Source: Streptacidiphilus melanogenes (GTDB lineage: Bacteria; Actinomycetota; Actinomycetes; Streptomycetales; Streptomycetaceae). Taken from it: 51,517 nt of DNA. The first letter of the stretch is position 1, and every line of letters begins with the position of its first letter. The position numbers and the translations under genes were made by a program. Below the pieces are notes generated by a model. It was not told the DNA's origin. It searched no databases and saw only the letters and a program-made list of their open reading frames with translations. Shown in pieces: positions 30,259-39,481 of this stretch. The DNA lies in contig NZ_BBPP01000033.1 in assembly GCF_000787835.1 (NCBI RefSeq), forward strand, positions 1 through 51,517. The letters run 5' to 3'.

Positions 30259-31245
30259 TCAGCTCTCCTTCTTCCAGCCCGCGCCCCAGGCGGCCGCGGG
30301 CTCTGGCTTCTGCTCCTGCTCCTGCTCCGGCGGGAGCGCCGGCGCGCCGGTCTGGTACTCGACGGCCTCCGCCGTCATCCGCATGAACGCCTCCTCCAGG
30401 GACGCGCGCTGCGGGCTCAGCTCGTGGAGCGTCACGCGGTGCTCGGCCGCGAGGTCGCCGATGCGGGCGAGGTCGCCGTTCTCCACCTCCCACGTGCCGT
30501 CGGCGCCCTGGAGGGCGGCGATGCCGCCCTGGGAGAGCGCGTCCAGCAACTGCTCCGGCTGCGGGGTCCGCAGCCGGACGAAGGAGCGGGAGTTGCGGTC
30601 GATGAACTCGTTCATCGGCATGTCGGCCAGGAGCCGGCCCAGGCCGATCACGACCAGGTGGTCCGCGGTCAGCGCCATCTCGCTCATCAGGTGCGAGGAG
30701 ACGAAGACGGTGCGGCCCTCCGCGGCCAGCGACTTCATCAGGTTGCGGACCCAGATGATGCCCTCCGGGTCCAGTCCGTTGACCGGCTCGTCGAACATCA
30801 GGATCTTCGGGTCGCCCAGCAGCGCTGCCGCGATCCCGAGCCGCTGGCCCATGCCGAGCGAGAACCCGCCCGAGCGCTTCTTGGCGACGGCGGTCAGCCC
30901 GACCAGGGCGAGCACCTCGTCCACCCGCCGGGTCGGGATGCGGTTGCTGGCCGCGAGCCACAACAGGTGGTTGTAGGCGGTGCGCCCCGGGTGCACGGCC
31001 TTCGCCTCCAGCAGGGCGCCGATGTACTTCAGCGGTTCGCGGAGCTGGCCGTAGTGCTTGCCGTCGATCCGGACCGAACCCGAGGTCGGCCGGTCCAGGT
31101 CGAGCATCATGCGCATGGTCGTCGACTTGCCGGCGCCGTTCGGGCCGAGGAAGCCCGTCACCACGCCCTGCGGGATGGTGAAACTGAGATGGTCGACGGC
31201 GAGTTTGTCGCCGTACCGCTTGGTCAGCTCGTTGACCTCGATCAT
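30259..31245 (-). CDS. ABC transporter ATP-binding protein
   Basis: 328 residues: an ATPase domain with Walker A GPNGAGKST, signature loop SLGMGQRLGIAAALLG (LGMGQ in place of the usual LSGGQ), Walker B ILMFDEPVNGLDPEG and the switch His in FVSSHLMSEM. A C-terminal ~100-residue extension ends in a Glu/Gln/Pro-rich tail. DrrA/CcmA-like exporters have this shape. TAGGGT (31257-31252) lies 6 bases before the ATG and no ribosome site is seen, so the operon message is probably leaderless. Confidence 0.94.
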   Translation of the reverse strand: MIEVNELTKRYGDKLAVDHLSFTIPQGVVTGFLGPNGAGKSTTMRMMLDLDRPTSGSVRIDGKHYGQLREPLKYIGALLEAKAVHPGRTAYNHLLWLAASNRIPTRRVDEVLALVGLTAVAKKRSGGFSLGMGQRLGIAAALLGDPKILMFDEPVNGLDPEGIIWVRNLMKSLAAEGRTVFVSSHLMSEMALTADHLVVIGLGRLLADMPMNEFIDRNSRSFVRLRTPQPEQLLDALSQGGIAALQGADGTWEVENGDLARIGDLAAEHRVTLHELSPQRASLEEAFMRMTAEAVEYQTGAPALPPEQEQEQKPEPAAAWGAGWKKES

Positions 31246-32567: not shown

Positions 32568-33503
32568 TCAGCGGCTCTGCTGGGCGGGGACGCCGCGGCC
32601 GATGACGTCGTCGTCGGGGGCGGCGGCAGCCGCGACTGCCGCGCCCGTGAGGGTGGCGAGCATCTCGCGGACGTTGGTGAGCTGGGCGTTGATGCTGTCG
32701 CGACGGTTCGTCAGCGCCGCGAGCTCGCGCTCGCTCTCGCTGCGGACACGGTCCGCCTTCGCGTTCGCGTCGGCGACGATGTCCTCGGCCTGGCGCTGGG
32801 CGGTCTCGACCGTCTGGCGCGCGCGACGCTCGGCGTCGGTGCGGAGCTTCTCCGCCTCCAGACGGAGCTGCTCGGCGCGGTGCTCGATCTCGGCGAGGCG
32901 CTTCTCGGCCTTGGCCTGACGCGCAGCCAGGTCACGCTCGGACTGCTCGCGGCGCTTGGCCAGGTTGGTCTCGAAGTCGGCCGCGGCCTGGGCGGCCTTG
33001 GCGCGGGTCTCCTCGAAGAGGGCGTCCGCCTCCTCGCGCTTGTTCTGCGCGTCCTTCGCGGCCTCGGCCCGCAGCTGCGCGGAGTCGCTCTTCGCCTTCT
33101 CGACGATACGAGCGCCCTCCTCCTCGGACTTGGCCTTGCGGTCCTTGGCGAAGCCGTCGGCCTCACTGCGGACCTGCTGGGCCGCGGCCTCGGCGAGCTC
33201 ACGGTGCTGCTCGGCGGCCCGACGGGCCTCCTCGCGCAGGTCCTTGGCCTCCTCCTCGGCCAGGCGCAGGATCTTCTCGACCCGGGCGCCCAGGCCCGCG
33301 TAGGACGGCTCGGAGTCCGTGATCTGTGCCTGTGCGGTCTGCGTCTCGAGGTGCAGCTCCTCGATGCGCTTCTCCAGCGCGCCGATCCGGTTGAGGGCGC
33401 CGTCGCGGTCCGTGACCAGCTTGCTGATGCGCTCGTCGACCTGAGCCCGCTCGTACCCGCGGCGCACAACGTCGAAGCCGTGCGGAGAGTGTGTGTCGCT
33501 CAT
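32568..33503 (-). CDS. filP: Filament-forming coiled-coil protein FilP
   Basis: Intermediate-filament-like cytoskeletal protein that stiffens hyphae and gathers behind growing tips with DivIVA. 311 residues: a short head (MSDTHSPHGFDVVRRGYERAQVDERI, DivIVA-like), an uninterrupted Ala/Glu/Arg-rich coiled coil from about 25 to 285, and a short tail ending PDDDVIGRGVPAQQSR. Start is ATG 33503 by match to the known N-terminus; the frame is open further upstream. It lies 123 bases downstream of scy in the same direction, as in S. coelicolor. Confidence 0.95.
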   Translation of the reverse strand: MSDTHSPHGFDVVRRGYERAQVDERISKLVTDRDGALNRIGALEKRIEELHLETQTAQAQITDSEPSYAGLGARVEKILRLAEEEAKDLREEARRAAEQHRELAEAAAQQVRSEADGFAKDRKAKSEEEGARIVEKAKSDSAQLRAEAAKDAQNKREEADALFEETRAKAAQAAADFETNLAKRREQSERDLAARQAKAEKRLAEIEHRAEQLRLEAEKLRTDAERRARQTVETAQRQAEDIVADANAKADRVRSESERELAALTNRRDSINAQLTNVREMLATLTGAAVAAAAAPDDDVIGRGVPAQQSR

Positions 33504-33626
33504 AGGGGTGGAGTTCCTGTCGTATGCCCGGAGAGTCGGATGGTTGAGGTGAGGTGATAGGGCGAATCCTGACACGGATTCGGTGTGTCATCGGCGGAAA
33601 GCCGATGAAGAGTGGAGAATGTCCGC

Positions 33627-36600
33627 TCAATCGGGTGGTTGCGTGCCGGCACGTTTGCCACCCGGACGGGTTGCCCCCGCTCCCACGCCCGCCGGGGCGC
33701 TTCCGCGGCCGCCGCCCGATCTGTTGGTGCTGTCCCCGTTGGCCCTGCTCGCCCCTGGGGCGGCGCCGTTTCCTGCGCCGCCCGATCCCCCGCTGGGCTT
33801 GCCCGCGGACGAGGGCGCCTCGAAGGCCTCGAGGGCCTGGAGGACGTCCTGAACGCGGGCGATCTCGGTGTTGATGTCCTTGCGCCGGCCCACCAGTTCG
33901 TCGAGCTCCCGGCGCCCCTCGTCGGTGATCCGCTTGGCCTCGGACCTCGCCTCCTCGACGGTCTGCTCGGCCTCGGCCCGTGCACGGGCCAGCTCCGTCT
34001 CGCCCGCCTCGACGGCGTCCTGACGAGTCTTCTCGGCGGCCTCGGCCGCCTCCGCACGCCGACGGTCGGCCTCCTCGCGGGCGGCTTCGAGCGCCGCGTC
34101 GGCGTCGGCCTTGCGGGCCTCCGCCTCCTTGAGCAGGCTCTCGGCCTTCCTGACCGCCTGGATGCGCACCTTGCTGGCCTCGGCGGACGCCTCGGCCTGC
34201 AGTTCGGCGGCCTTCTCCTTGGCCACGGCGAGCTCGCGCTCGGCCTCGGCCCGGGTGGCGTCGAGCTGCTCGCCGGTGTCGGCGATCAGCTTGTCCACCC
34301 GCTCGCCGGCCGCGCGCAGCGCCTCCGCGGACTCCTTGCGGGCCCGCTCGTGCAGCGCCTCGATGTCGGCGTGGGTGCGCTCGCGCAGCTCCTCGGCGCG
34401 CTCGCGGATCTGCGTGGCGTCGCCGCGGGCCTCGACCAGCATCTGGTCGGCGTCCCGGCGGGCCTGCTCGACGACCGCGCTGCCCTCGGCGGCGCCCTCG
34501 GCGGTGATCCGCTCGGCCTCCTTGCGGGCGGCCGACACCATGGCGTCGGCCTGCTCCTCCGCGGCGGCCGTGGTGGCCAGCGCGGCGGTCTCTGCGTCGG
34601 CGGTGACCGACTCGGCCAGCTCCTGCGCCTCGGCGAGGGCCCGGGTGGAGTCCTCGGCGGCGCGGGCGCGCAGCTCCTCGGCCTCGGCGCGCAGACGCTG
34701 GGACTCCTGCTCGGCCTGCTCGCGGATCTGCTCGGCCTCGGCGCGCAGCCGGGCGGCCTCGGTCGTGGCCAGCTCCCGGATCTGCGCGGCTTCGCGTTCG
34801 GCGTCGGCGCGGGTCTGCGTGGTCTGCGCCTCGGCCTGCTCGTAGAGGCCGGCGACGGACTGGCGGACCGCCGCGGCCTCGTCCTCGGCCGCGGCGATGC
34901 GGGTCGCGGCGTCGCGCTCGCTCTGCTCGCGCTCGGCCTCGATCCTGGCCCGCTCCTCGGTGAAGGCCTCGGCGGCCTCCGTGCGCAGCGCGGCCAGCTC
35001 GGTGGTGACCCGCTCGCGGTCGTCCGCGGCCTCGGCGCGCAGCCGGGCGGCCTCGGTCGTGGCCAGCTGCCGCACCTGCGCGGCCTCGCGCTCGGCGGCG
35101 TCCCGGGTCTCGCCGGCCACCAGTTCGGCGGCGGTGCGCTGCTCGGCGAGCTCGGCGTCGAAGAGCGCGCGGTCGGCCGCGGCCTTGGCCTCGGCGTCGG
35201 CGAGGACCTTGGCGCGTCCTCGCGCAGTTCGGCGACGGCGGTCTCGGTGTCGGTGAGTGCCTTGGCCGCGGTCTCGCGGGAGTTCTTTGGCGTCGGCGAG
35301 GTCCACCGCGGCGGCCTCGCGGGCCTCGGCGCGGACGCGGTCGGCCTCGGCGTGCGCCTCGGCCATCACCGCGTCACGGCGGTCGGCCAGCTCGTGCTCG
35401 GTCTCCGCGCGCAGCGCGGCCAGGTCGGCGGCGTGCTGGGCGGCGTCCTGCTCGGCCTGGGCGATGATCTCCGCGGTGCGGGCGTCGGCGGCGGTGCGCT
35501 GCTCCATCATCGCCGCGCGCTCGGCCTCGATCGCGGCGTCCGCCTCGGCGCGGATCCGGGCCAGCTCGACGCCGGCCTCGTCGTAGTCGCGGCGGGCCCG
35601 GGCGTGGATCTCGTCGGCGGCGGCCTGAGCGGCCTCGCGGATGCCGGTGGCGGCGCGGTCGGCCTCGGCGCGCAGCTCGGCGAACTCCGCCTCCAGCGCC
35701 TCGCGGTCGGCGGCGACCTTGGCCTCGGCGTCGGCGAGGACCTTGGCGCGTCCTCGCGCAGTTCGGCGACGGCGGTCTCGGTGTCGGTGAGTGCCTTGGC
35801 CGCGGTCTCGCGGGAGTTCTTTGGCGTCGGCGAGGTCGGTGGCGGCGGCCTCGCGAGCCTCGGCGCGGACACGGTCGGCCTCGGCGTGCGCCTCGGCGAG
35901 GACCGTCTCGCGCCGCTCGGCGTGCTCGCGCTCGGCCTTGGCCCGCAGGTCGGCGAGGTCGGCGGCGTGCTGGACGCGCGCCTGCTCGGTCTGCTCCACG
36001 GTGGCCCGGGCCTCGGCGTGCAGGGCCTCGCGCCGGGCGGTGGCGTCCGCCTCGTGCTGGTCCATCGTCAGCCGCAGCTGCTCGGCGGCTCCCTGGGCCT
36101 CGGCGGTGAGCCGCTCGGCCTCCACCTGCGCGGCGACGAGCAGGGCCTCGCGCTGCTGGGCGTCCTCGGCGAGCTGCTGGGCGCGCTCCTGCTCGGCCTG
36201 CTCGGCGGCCTCCTGGGAGCGACCGCGGATCATGTCCGCGTCGGCCTTGGCGGTGGCCAGCATGGTGACGCGGCGCTCGGCGAGCTCGTTCGCCTGCTTC
36301 TCGGCGGCCTGGCGGGCCTCCTCGGCCAGACGTGCGGCCTCCGCCTCGGCCGCCTCCCGGCGGCTGACCAGGTCGGCCTCCAGGTCGCGGGCGGCCTCGC
36401 GGATCCGTTCGGCGTCGGCCTCGGCTTCGGCGATCGACGCGGCGGCCTGCTCGCGCAGCGTCCTGGCGTCCTCGATGTCCTGGGCGGCGGCCTCGTGGGC
36501 CCGGGCCCGGATCTGCTCGGCGTCGCCTTCGGCGGAGTCGGTCGTGGCCTTGGCGGCGGCCAGATCCCGGTCGACGGTCTCCTGCGCCTCGGCGCGCAGC

Positions 36601-38525
36601 CGCTCGATCTCGGAGTCGAGATCGGCGCGCATCCGGGCGAGCTCGTTCTCGGCCTGGGCGCGGGACTCGGCGACCTCGGCGGCGGTGCGCTCGCGCAGCT
36701 CGGCGGCGGCGCGGGCGTCCTCGGCGGCCTGGTCGGCGTCGGCGGCCGCCTGCTGGGCACGCTCGCCGGCCAGCTGCTCGGTGGCGGCCAGGATCTCGTC
36801 GCGCTCCTGCCGCGCCTCGGCGCGGACGCGCTCGGCCTCGGCGGCGGCCTGGACCCGCAACTCGTCGGCGGCGGCCGCGGCGGACTGGTGGGAGTCCTGG
36901 GCGGCGGCCTGGGCGGCGGCGCGGATCTCCTCGGCCTTGGCGGCGCCCTTGGCGGCCTCGGTGTCGCGGACACCCTCGGCCTCGCTGCGGATGCGGTCGC
37001 CCTCGGCCTTGGCGCGGGTCAGCACCTGCTCGGCGCGGGCCTGCATCTCGCGGGCCTCCTCGGCGGCGCGCGCCTTGGCGGCGGCGACCTCCTCGGCGGC
37101 TCCGCCGCGCAGCTCGTCGGCGTCGGCCTTCGCCTTGACCAGGAGCTCCTCGGCCGACCTGGCCGACTCCTCGATCTGCGCTATGGCCTGACGACGGGCT
37201 TCGCCGAGGGTCCGTTCGACCTCGACGGCGGTCTCGGCGCGCAGCTGCTCGGCCTCGGCCCGCAGCTGGGCGGCGGCGTCCTGGTGGGCGGCGATCTCGT
37301 CCAGCGCCATGCCCTGGGCCTGCTCGGCGGCGGATCTGGCCTGCTCGCGCAGGAGCTGCACCTCGGACTTGGCCTCGGCGCGCAGCCGCTCCGCCTCCTC
37401 GGCGGCGTTCTGCCGGACCGTCTCCGCGTCGGCGGTGGCGCGGGCGACGACGTCCTCGGCGGTGCGGGCGGCCTTGGCGAGGTGGACGGTGGCGGTGGCG
37501 GCGCCCTCGGTGCGGGCGGATTCGAGGGCCTCGGCCTTGAGCCGCTCGATCTCGGCGCGGGCCTCCTCCAGCAGGCGCTGGGCCTCGGCCCTGACCTCGT
37601 CGGCCTCCTTGGTCGCGCTCGCGACCATGCGGGCGACCTCGGCCTTGGCGGTGTCGGCGCGCTGCTGACCGGCGGCCTCGGCGGTGGCCAGGCGGGCCTC
37701 GGCCTCGTGGCTGAGCTGCTCGGCCTCGCCGCGCAGGGCGGCGGCTTCATCGCGCAGCCGCTGGATCTCGGCCTGGGCCCCGGCCAGACGCTCGTCGGCC
37801 TCGACCCCGGCGTCGGCGCGGACGCGCTCGGCCCGCTCGGTGGCGTCCTGGGCCTGCGCCGCGGCGGCGTTCAGCAGCCGCTCCGCCTCGGTCCGGGCGC
37901 GGTGCAGCACCGAGTCGGCCTCGGCGCGGGTGGACTCGACGTCGGCGGCGACCTGGGAGGTGGCGACCTCGGAGACGGCCATGGCCTCGGCGCGGGCGAC
38001 ACTGAGCATGCGCTCGGCCTCGGCCCGTGCCTCGTCCATGATCTGCCGGGCCTGCGCCTCGGTCCCGGCGCGGGCCTGTTCGGCCCAGGAGACGTTCTCG
38101 TTGACGTGCTGCTCGGCGTTGCGGCGCAGCTCGGCGAGCTCGGCCTCCAGATGGCGGCGCCGGGCCTCGGCCTCGGCCTGCCACTCGGCCTGGAGCCGGG
38201 CCGACCGCTCCGCGGCCTCCTGCATCAGCCGGGCGGTGGCGTTCTGCGCCTCCATCCGGGTGCGCTCGGCCTCCTGCCGCAGCTGCTCGGCCTGGGCCTC
38301 GGCGTTGCGCAGGATCTGCTCGGCCTGCCCGGCCACGGAGTCGAAAGCGCGCGGCTGGGCGAGCTGCCGACGTGCCTCGTGCAGCTTGGCGCGGAGGACT
38401 TCGACCTGGTAGGCGAGGTCCTCGGCGTGTGTGACGGCCTTCTCGCGCTCCTTGCGAAGCCGCTCCATGTCGGCCTCGAACTTGGCGAGGTGATCGTCAA
38501 CCTCGTAGCCGTCGTTGCCCCGCAC
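33627..38525 (-). CDS. scy: Giant coiled-coil polarity scaffold Scy
   Basis: Tip-organising protein that works with DivIVA and FilP to set sites of polar growth. 1632 residues from GTG 38525 (VRGNDGYEVDD); a GTG at 38564 would add 13. The N-terminus has a DivIVA-like element (HLAKFEADMERLRKERE ... YQVEVLRAKL), then ~1500 residues of Ala/Glu/Arg/Gln coiled coil. The C-terminal ~65 residues are Gly/Ser/Pro-rich and disordered. The S. coelicolor protein is near 1326 residues (from memory), so this one is longer. Two Arg-rich, Pro/Gly-containing patches of ~23 residues (around residues 904-926 and 1082-1104) interrupt the coil; they are out-of-frame readings in two identical 121-bp repeats (35717-35837 and 35183-35303). 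The overall frame remains open. Confidence 0.93.
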   Translation of the reverse strand: MRGNDGYEVDDHLAKFEADMERLRKEREKAVTHAEDLAYQVEVLRAKLHEARRQLAQPRAFDSVAGQAEQILRNAEAQAEQLRQEAERTRMEAQNATARLMQEAAERSARLQAEWQAEAEARRRHLEAELAELRRNAEQHVNENVSWAEQARAGTEAQARQIMDEARAEAERMLSVARAEAMAVSEVATSQVAADVESTRAEADSVLHRARTEAERLLNAAAAQAQDATERAERVRADAGVEADERLAGAQAEIQRLRDEAAALRGEAEQLSHEAEARLATAEAAGQQRADTAKAEVARMVASATKEADEVRAEAQRLLEEARAEIERLKAEALESARTEGAATATVHLAKAARTAEDVVARATADAETVRQNAAEEAERLRAEAKSEVQLLREQARSAAEQAQGMALDEIAAHQDAAAQLRAEAEQLRAETAVEVERTLGEARRQAIAQIEESARSAEELLVKAKADADELRGGAAEEVAAAKARAAEEAREMQARAEQVLTRAKAEGDRIRSEAEGVRDTEAAKGAAKAEEIRAAAQAAAQDSHQSAAAAADELRVQAAAEAERVRAEARQERDEILAATEQLAGERAQQAAADADQAAEDARAAAELRERTAAEVAESRAQAENELARMRADLDSEIERLRAEAQETVDRDLAAAKATTDSAEGDAEQIRARAHEAAAQDIEDARTLREQAAASIAEAEADAERIREAARDLEADLVSRREAAEAEAARLAEEARQAAEKQANELAERRVTMLATAKADADMIRGRSQEAAEQAEQERAQQLAEDAQQREALLVAAQVEAERLTAEAQGAAEQLRLTMDQHEADATARREALHAEARATVEQTEQARVQHAADLADLRAKAEREHAERRETVLAEAHAEADRVRAEAREAAATDLADAKELPRDRGQGTHRHRDRRRRTARGRAKVLADAEAKVAADREALEAEFAELRAEADRAATGIREAAQAAADEIHARARRDYDEAGVELARIRAEADAAIEAERAAMMEQRTAADARTAEIIAQAEQDAAQHAADLAALRAETEHELADRRDAVMAEAHAEADRVRAEAREAAAVDLADAKELPRDRGQGTHRHRDRRRRTARGRAKVLADAEAKAAADRALFDAELAEQRTAAELVAGETRDAAEREAAQVRQLATTEAARLRAEAADDRERVTTELAALRTEAAEAFTEERARIEAEREQSERDAATRIAAAEDEAAAVRQSVAGLYEQAEAQTTQTRADAEREAAQIRELATTEAARLRAEAEQIREQAEQESQRLRAEAEELRARAAEDSTRALAEAQELAESVTADAETAALATTAAAEEQADAMVSAARKEAERITAEGAAEGSAVVEQARRDADQMLVEARGDATQIRERAEELRERTHADIEALHERARKESAEALRAAGERVDKLIADTGEQLDATRAEAERELAVAKEKAAELQAEASAEASKVRIQAVRKAESLLKEAEARKADADAALEAAREEADRRRAEAAEAAEKTRQDAVEAGETELARARAEAEQTVEEARSEAKRITDEGRRELDELVGRRKDINTEIARVQDVLQALEAFEAPSSAGKPSGGSGGAGNGAAPGASRANGDSTNRSGGGRGSAPAGVGAGATRPGGKRAGTQPPD
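35183..35303. repeat. 121-bp direct repeat inside scy, copy A
   Basis: Identical base for base to 35717-35837; copies start 534 bp (178 codons) apart. In the scy frame the middle reads LPRDRGQGTHRHRDRRRR. One frame over it reads RETAAKALTDTETAVAELRE, normal coiled coil. A one-base gain and a one-base loss about 70 bp apart therefore compensate. Confidence 0.9.
35717..35837. repeat. 121-bp direct repeat inside scy, copy B
   Basis: Second identical copy of the repeat above, with the same compensated frame change. Flanking sequences of the two copies differ in several bases, so identity is limited to this block and its nearest surroundings. Confidence 0.9.
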
Positions 38526-38798
38526 TCCGCGGTCCCATCCGTCTCCATGATCGCGTCGCCGCACCGTGCGCGGATCGGGTGTATCCCGCTCCGCCGTCCG
38601 GGTGAGCTCCTTGGTGAACCCTATGCCTTACGGAGAATGGTGGCAGATCGTTGGGAAGGGTGGGCCACTCGGTGTCCTGTTCACCCCACCCGCACCCCCG
38701 ACAACCGGGTCCGTGGCACCGGCGCATTTTCTCACGTCATCGGGGGTGCGCGCAGGGGGGTGGGCCGGATTTTCTGGTTGTGCGTGCCCAGATGTTCG

Positions 38799-39236
38799 TT
38801 ACTGGTGGGTTTCCTGAGCGGCGGAGGTCACCAGCTCGGTGAGGACTCCGTGGCAGTCCTTGGGGTGGAGGAACGTGATCCGGGAGCCCATGGAGCCGAT
38901 ACGCGGCTCGTCGTAGAGGACCCGGACGCCCTTGCCGCGGATGTCCGCCGCGTCGCCGTCCACGTCCGCGGTGCCGAAGGCGATGTGGTGCACGCCCTCG
39001 CCGTTCTTGGCCAGCCACTTGCCCACGGCGGAGTCCTCGCGGGTGGGCTCCAGCAGCTGCAGGTAGCTGGCGCCGCCGTCGGAGGTCTCGTTGATCTTCA
39101 GCATGGCCTCGCGGACGCCCTGCTCCTCGTTGACCTCGGTGTGGAAGACCTCGAAGCCGTAGGTCGCGCGGTAGAACTCGACCGTCTTGTCGAGGTCGAA
39201 GCAGGCGATGCCGATGTGGTCGATGCGCGTCAGCAC
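38799..39236 (-). CDS. mce: Methylmalonyl-CoA epimerase
   Basis: Converts (S)- to (R)-methylmalonyl-CoA (often also ethylmalonyl-CoA) so the mutase can use it. 145-residue vicinal-oxygen-chelate fold: metal ligands in IDHIGIA, GVHHIAFG and the C-terminal GVLTELVT, with the YLQLLEP strand. GTG start at 39236, with AGGAGG upstream. Divergent from the thiolase gene, and near meaB, consistent with acyl-CoA/B12 metabolism. Confidence 0.95.
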   Translation of the reverse strand: MLTRIDHIGIACFDLDKTVEFYRATYGFEVFHTEVNEEQGVREAMLKINETSDGGASYLQLLEPTREDSAVGKWLAKNGEGVHHIAFGTADVDGDAADIRGKGVRVLYDEPRIGSMGSRITFLHPKDCHGVLTELVTSAAQETHQ

Positions 39237-39277
39237 GGGGAGGTCCTCCTGAGGGCTGTGCTGTCCAAAGGGAATGG

Positions 39278-39298
39278 GAAGCGACCTGGGATCGCTTC
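39278..39298. other. Short hairpin in the mce-thiolase divergent region
   Basis: GAAGCGA-CCTGGGA-TCGCTTC is a perfect 7-bp stem with a 7-base loop, followed by TTCAAAT. It may be an operator or a leader hairpin. The rest of the 245-base gap has a -10-like TACATT near 39394 for the thiolase gene. Confidence 0.4.
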
Positions 39299-39481
39299 TT
39301 CAAATAGAGCGCAACTCGCGTTCCGGCGAAACCCGCGCCGACCGTGCCCGTGATCACACCGTGTGCCGGGTGACGGTGTCACGGCTCCTCGATACATTGG
39401 CGGAAAACCCTCAACTGGCACTCGGTGCCGTGGCACACCGCCTCCTGCCAGTTCCCGTCGCAGCAAAGGGGCTCGACCACC

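Follow-up and report, generated by a model that had tools for sequence, protein, structure and literature searches.

Cancelling frameshifts in two identical repeat units of a Streptacidiphilus melanogenes scy gene: probable consensus error or candidate compensated pair

Introduction

Gene conversion is known to make repeats within a gene evolve in concert. Compensated pairs of frameshifting mutations (pCFMs) are likewise a known kind of change, described by Biba, Klink and Bazykin (2022; PMC8935012), who report for vertebrates and insects that 6 of the 624 genes with candidates passed their quality filters. The streptomycete protein Scy is described as a coiled coil built on a 51-residue repeat (CC51), which dimerises and binds ParA through the coil (PMC3718342). 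A literature search on scy together with frameshift returned no title on such a case. Here, we analyse the scy gene of Streptacidiphilus melanogenes within a window of 51,517 nucleotides (the whole stretch of DNA studied, NZ_BBPP01000033.1, positions 1 to 51,517), in which two identical blocks are read out of the usual frame.

Results

The scy gene occupies positions 33627–38564 of the minus strand and encodes 1645 amino acids from a GTG at 38564, in an open frame without internal stop. Its product is a long coiled-coil polar-growth scaffold, whose best NCBIfam match is NF041483 (growth_prot_Scy) over residues 23–755 (E = 1.4e-201, 672 bits, under the curated cut-off of 1040). The slips described below are not the cause of this low score, since the Scy proteins of two relatives, G010 and G012, also miss the cut-off (682 and 679 bits). 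The N-terminal region of Scy is conserved: a 113-aa query was matched once per genome in 121 of 121 genomes, with E values up to 1e-25. The neighbouring coiled-coil gene (32568–33575, minus strand) shows a weak DivIVA match (E = 0.0058, below cut-off) and is probably filP, a name that we assume from the gene order of Streptomyces. Antisense to scy runs an open frame of 1913 aa (33612–39353, plus strand), probably no gene but a side effect of the coil repeats with their high G+C. A second repeat pair within scy (34715–34816 and 35009–35110, 102 nt, 86% alike) is spaced by 294 bp, as is a 42-bp exact repeat, which G002 possesses as well.

We confirmed the two identical 121-bp blocks reported in the initial annotation. 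They lie on the minus strand at 35717–35837 (unit A, first in the protein) and 35183–35303 (unit B, second in the protein), are spaced by 534 bp (178 codons) and are maximal, the identity stopping at both ends. In both, the scy frame reads a 24-residue Arg-rich peptide, and the next frame reads RETAAKALTDTETAVAELRED, a normal coil. Delimited by a codon model and by alignment, the off-frame codons span 35748–35819 in unit A (Scy residues about 916–939) and 35214–35285 in unit B (about 1094–1117), that is 24 codons per block relative to relatives, where roughly 23 had first been noted.

The junctions were defined in both blocks against the alignments with G010, G008 and G002. Read in the coding direction, each off-frame stretch opens with one inserted base, seen as TTT on the plus strand where relatives have TT (35820–35822 in unit A, 35286–35288 in unit B; gene on the minus strand). 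It closes where one base is missing from a GGCGG tract, next to a C to G difference (about 35745–35751 and about 35211–35217, respectively, minus strand). The two changes lie about 70 nt apart in each block and leave the length of scy unchanged; the proposal that entry and exit shifts cancel is upheld, as a compensated +1/−1 pair relative to relatives. At the exit of unit B, an inverted repeat of 8 bp with a loop of 8 (GCGAGGAC / GTCCTCGC, 35200–35223) is found, with its copy at the exit of unit A (35734–35757). The corresponding structure has 7 bp and a loop of 11 in G008 and G002, and 6 bp and a loop of 13 in G010. An 8-bp stem is not in itself rare, because scy contains 8 such stems in total; combinations of a deletion and a substitution of the exit type lengthen the inverted repeat in 7 of 168 cases.

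Codon statistics point to the same two places. With codon usage taken from five relatives, the neighbouring frame is ahead by 6–52 bits in 14 windows of 17 codons over both blocks; elsewhere in scy, windows of this kind are confined to the C-terminal tail. Under a leave-one-out codon model, it leads by 21–51 bits in ten passing 17-codon windows, all of them in the blocks. Chance was rejected as the cause of this off-frame signal, the codon-model lead being too strong. We also scanned 1592 ORFs over 492 kb and obtained 38 off-frame islands, two of them in scy. Outside scy, those with coding scores of at least 0.8 comprise one Pro-rich stretch and one ORF running over a neighbouring gene, and the other 34, with lower scores, are taken as spurious ORFs.

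The wider scan covered 65 Scy loci including that of the window's genome (G000), drawn from 60 further Streptomycetaceae genomes out of 115 found plus six genes; G016 is absent from this set, and G007 falls outside it because its scy gene is split. Short off-frame islands flanked by normal frame were found at the window's locus only, none of the other 64 loci showing a compensated island (the G001 and G077 ORFs end early), and among the loci scanned the pair is thereby confined to one species. An off-frame part of any kind occurs in 5 of the 65 loci, the window included. In the other four (G001, G077, G080 and G134; loci L076, L080, L082 and L119, respectively), scy leaves the frame and does not return to it before the ORF ends or is close to its end; the change lies at runs of N in three of them and, in G080, within a short tandem repeat.

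A search of 60 relatives recovered the orthologous region in G010, G008 (Streptacidiphilus jiangxiensis CGMCC 4.1857), G002, G012 and G004 (S. fuscans), and part of it in G007. G010, G007 and G001 appear to be drafts of S. anmyonensis, S. neutrinimicus and S. carbonis produced by the same pipeline as the window's assembly. In G010, G008 and G002, both repeat units are present at the 534-bp spacing, with KNSRESAAKALTDTETAVAELREEAAK or close variants read in frame. In G012 (L038) and G004 (L039), this form is seen in the second unit alone; the units thus vary within the genus, because the first one there lacks the TETAVAELRE part. Both indels are present in G000 and neither in G010, G008 or G002, G007 covering part of one exit; hence, there are two cancelling one-base indels on the same branch, and none of these relatives carries only one of them. 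The alignment with related scy genes, suggested earlier as a check, places the relatives G010, G008 and G002 in the normal frame and the pair in the window's assembly alone.

The exact repeat between the two units extends over 143 bp in G010, 91 bp in G008, 96 bp in G002 and 121 bp in the window. In the core (alignment columns 210–285), the paralogues of four genomes are 96–100% identical and the orthologues among G000, G010 and G002 93–98%. The order is reversed outside this tract, with 42–76% for paralogues versus 78–100% for orthologues in the 3' flank (columns 300–435) and 60–89% versus 80–100% in the 5' flank (columns 0–105). Copies within a genome are closer than orthologues inside the tract only, which is the pattern that gene conversion leaves. 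These identities support the view that units A and B are paralogous Scy coil repeats kept nearly identical by gene conversion in four species. The two patches would then go back to one event, because the units appear to evolve in concert by conversion. Collapse of short-read repeats might also produce identical copies; identity over 91 and 96 bp is seen in the assemblies of G008 (S. jiangxiensis CGMCC 4.1857) and G002. Recent duplication of the block was rejected, as three relatives also have both units, 534 bp apart. Of the earlier suggestion that the change arose once and was copied by duplication or conversion, the single origin and the conversion are retained and the recent duplication is dropped.

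As for the composition of the off-frame peptide, we used as controls 6276 overlapping 23-codon stretches in the entered frame of the scy genes of five relatives, 94% of which are free of stops. The mean Arg fraction in this frame is 0.37 (sd 0.09), and the 0.43 of the off-frame peptide is reached by 32% of the stretches; in the other alternative frame of scy, the mean is 0.24 and 2% reach 0.43. A basic, open peptide is ordinary here, because the entered frame usually gives an Arg-rich, stop-free reading in scy. The gene does stay open, as had been pointed out, yet this says little given the stop-free controls. Between the junctions and before the exit site, one window-only substitution was found, which falls on the third base of an old-frame codon; a single change is too few for selection to be demonstrated in either frame.

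AlphaFold models of the G010 piece and the window piece, built without an alignment, reached mean pLDDT values of 84.9 and 86.5. The former is predicted as an almost unbroken helix with one gap at 165–170. The latter is helical except for breaks at residues 58–65 and 235–243 of the piece, near which pLDDT falls to 63–73. About 15 of the 24 off-frame residues stay helical at low confidence, single-sequence models of coils being a rough guide only.

The assembly of the window comprises 107 contigs and 8,769,984 bases. The published S. melanogenes NBRC 103184 draft has 107 scaffolds and 8,771,919 bp, obtained with MiSeq only at 59-fold coverage and assembled with Newbler 2.6 (PMC4290990), and a draft of 8.77 Mb in 107 contigs is given for this species in PMC7601586; we infer that the window belongs to this MiSeq-only Newbler draft. 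Just past the window end, a run of 392 N occupies 51518–51909; since it begins where the window ends, the contig is in effect a scaffold with gaps. Among exact direct repeats of at least 60 bp in 492,342 bases of the window's genome, the 121-bp block is the longest, the next measuring 77, 76 and 74 bp. In G007, the nearest relative (94–96% identical at the scy region), a contig ends inside this very block and another begins at the equivalent of about 35901, the middle being missing. The scy gene of G001 contains a run of N.

Against G010, we counted 72 frame-changing indels over 63,409 aligned bases, four of them in scy. Judged by position, no further slip in a gene core was recognised over these bases. 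Nor did ORFs with a clear coding score within the 492 kb show other slips, though no second exact repeat longer than 100 bp occurs there. The comparison with G008 covers scy only and returns the same four slips, its other differences being mostly misaligned repeats. An apparent +1/−1 pair relative to G010 lies at 30323 and 30343, 20 nt apart and poorly aligned, near the end of the ORF 30259–31245.

Discussion

On balance, the slips are probably a consensus error in the shared repeat, a reading towards which we lean slightly over that of a real pair. The stretch common to both units would draw reads from both places and might be called a single time, gaining a base near one edge and losing another further in; this erroneous consensus may then have been written into both units, in which case the true protein would be an ordinary uninterrupted coil with no basic patches. 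The slips are confined to the identical block, both copies carry exactly the same two, and the old frame still reads normal coil between the junctions. The same reading is favoured by the length of the block, the longest exact direct repeat in the 492 kb, by the contig break of G007 and the run of N of G001 in scy, by the lack of compensated islands at the other 64 loci scanned, and by how few candidate pairs pass the filters in vertebrates and insects. The segment is also fairly conserved in five species, with 20 invariant columns out of 25 inside it and 118 of 185 outside; this is a weak argument, because 44 of the 186 windows of that width match or exceed it. On the other side, consensus indels in MiSeq data are rare at 59-fold coverage. 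The identical block of G010 is longer (143 bp) and reads in the normal frame, and the exit change is compound, lengthening the inverted repeat as a template-switch mutation would. With MiSeq, read lengths of up to 2 x 300 bp are possible (PMC4381044), long enough to span 121 bp, which would also count against an error, the read length used here being unstated. Pseudogene counts, given in PMC7601586 as 390 for S. melanogenes, 76 for S. jiangxiensis NBRC 100920 and 366 for the single-contig S. albus, do not discriminate. Alternatively, and as a serious though tentative possibility, a close +1 and −1 arose on the strain lineage, the second offsetting the first, and conversion copied the altered unit; the change would be recent and near-neutral or mildly harmful, Scy tolerating two helix interruptions 178 residues apart. 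This agrees with the concerted evolution of the units in four species, of which G008 at least stands outside the NBRC project, with the absence of any further recognised gene-core slip in the 63 kb compared, with the fit of the exit change to a quasipalindrome template switch, with the helix predicted at low confidence for about 15 of 24 off-frame residues, and with a frame tolerant of such shifts, in which nearly all control stretches lack stops and the length stays the same. A one-step intermediate is expected to be harmful, yet it could yield a long protein, because in three relatives the alternative frames run on without a stop for 40 to 334 codons or until the gene ends (12 readings). Against a real pair stand its presence in a single draft assembly, at a repeat, and an old frame that shows no decay; should the pair be real, the undamaged old frame would point to a young age, although the one substitution proves nothing. 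The more specific outcome, in which conversion carried a real double frameshift from one unit into the other and left Scy with two identical basic joints that break the helix, about 178 residues from each other, we hold a shade more tentatively still.

The initial annotation went further and saw in the patches hinge-like exaptations. That they are selected basic hinges, giving Scy a new function in binding or bending, appears very improbable: two identical Arg-rich patches are indeed present and the breaks predicted in the window piece are absent from the G010 piece, but such a composition is usual for the entered frame, the patches were seen in no other species examined, the substitutions are too few to show selection, and the identity of the copies is already accounted for by conversion. 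The view that the patches are exapted is therefore not supported. That the old frame is regained in translation, by programmed ribosomal frameshifting or recoding with an altered code, is hardly credible, as each of the two copies would need a pair of programmed shifts in opposite directions; the old frame does survive from junction to junction, as such a reading would have it, but no slippery heptamer was noticed when the junctions were read by eye, and the relatives need none.

We regard the window's scy as a candidate compensated frameshift pair, conditional on confirmation by reads. If real, it would be a bacterial case of this kind, and gene conversion could multiply such novelty inside one protein. 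If an error, it serves as a warning that repeat-rich coiled-coil genes like scy need checking in draft genomes. Given the frame changes in four other genomes, scy is a weak spot of assemblies.

Compared with the pCFMs described in PMC8935012, the locus presents the same features, namely two close indels of 1–2 nt on one lineage, a restored frame and a radically different peptide in between. Unlike those cases, it is bacterial and present twice through putative conversion, and whereas the filters given there call for several species and for mRNA or protein support, the pair here is known from one assembly. The exit, where a deletion and a substitution lengthen an inverted repeat, resembles the quasipalindrome template-switch mutations treated in PMC7202029, but the likeness extends to one of the two junctions and its support (7/168) is weak. 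By its NF041483 match, the window protein is, like the Scy of Streptomyces, a long coil of the Scy family; it has 1645 aa versus the 1326 aa given for S. coelicolor Scy in PMC3718342, and in this assembly it has two off-frame stretches. As in known concerted evolution, the copies are identical within the genome, the orthologues differ and the flanks have diverged.
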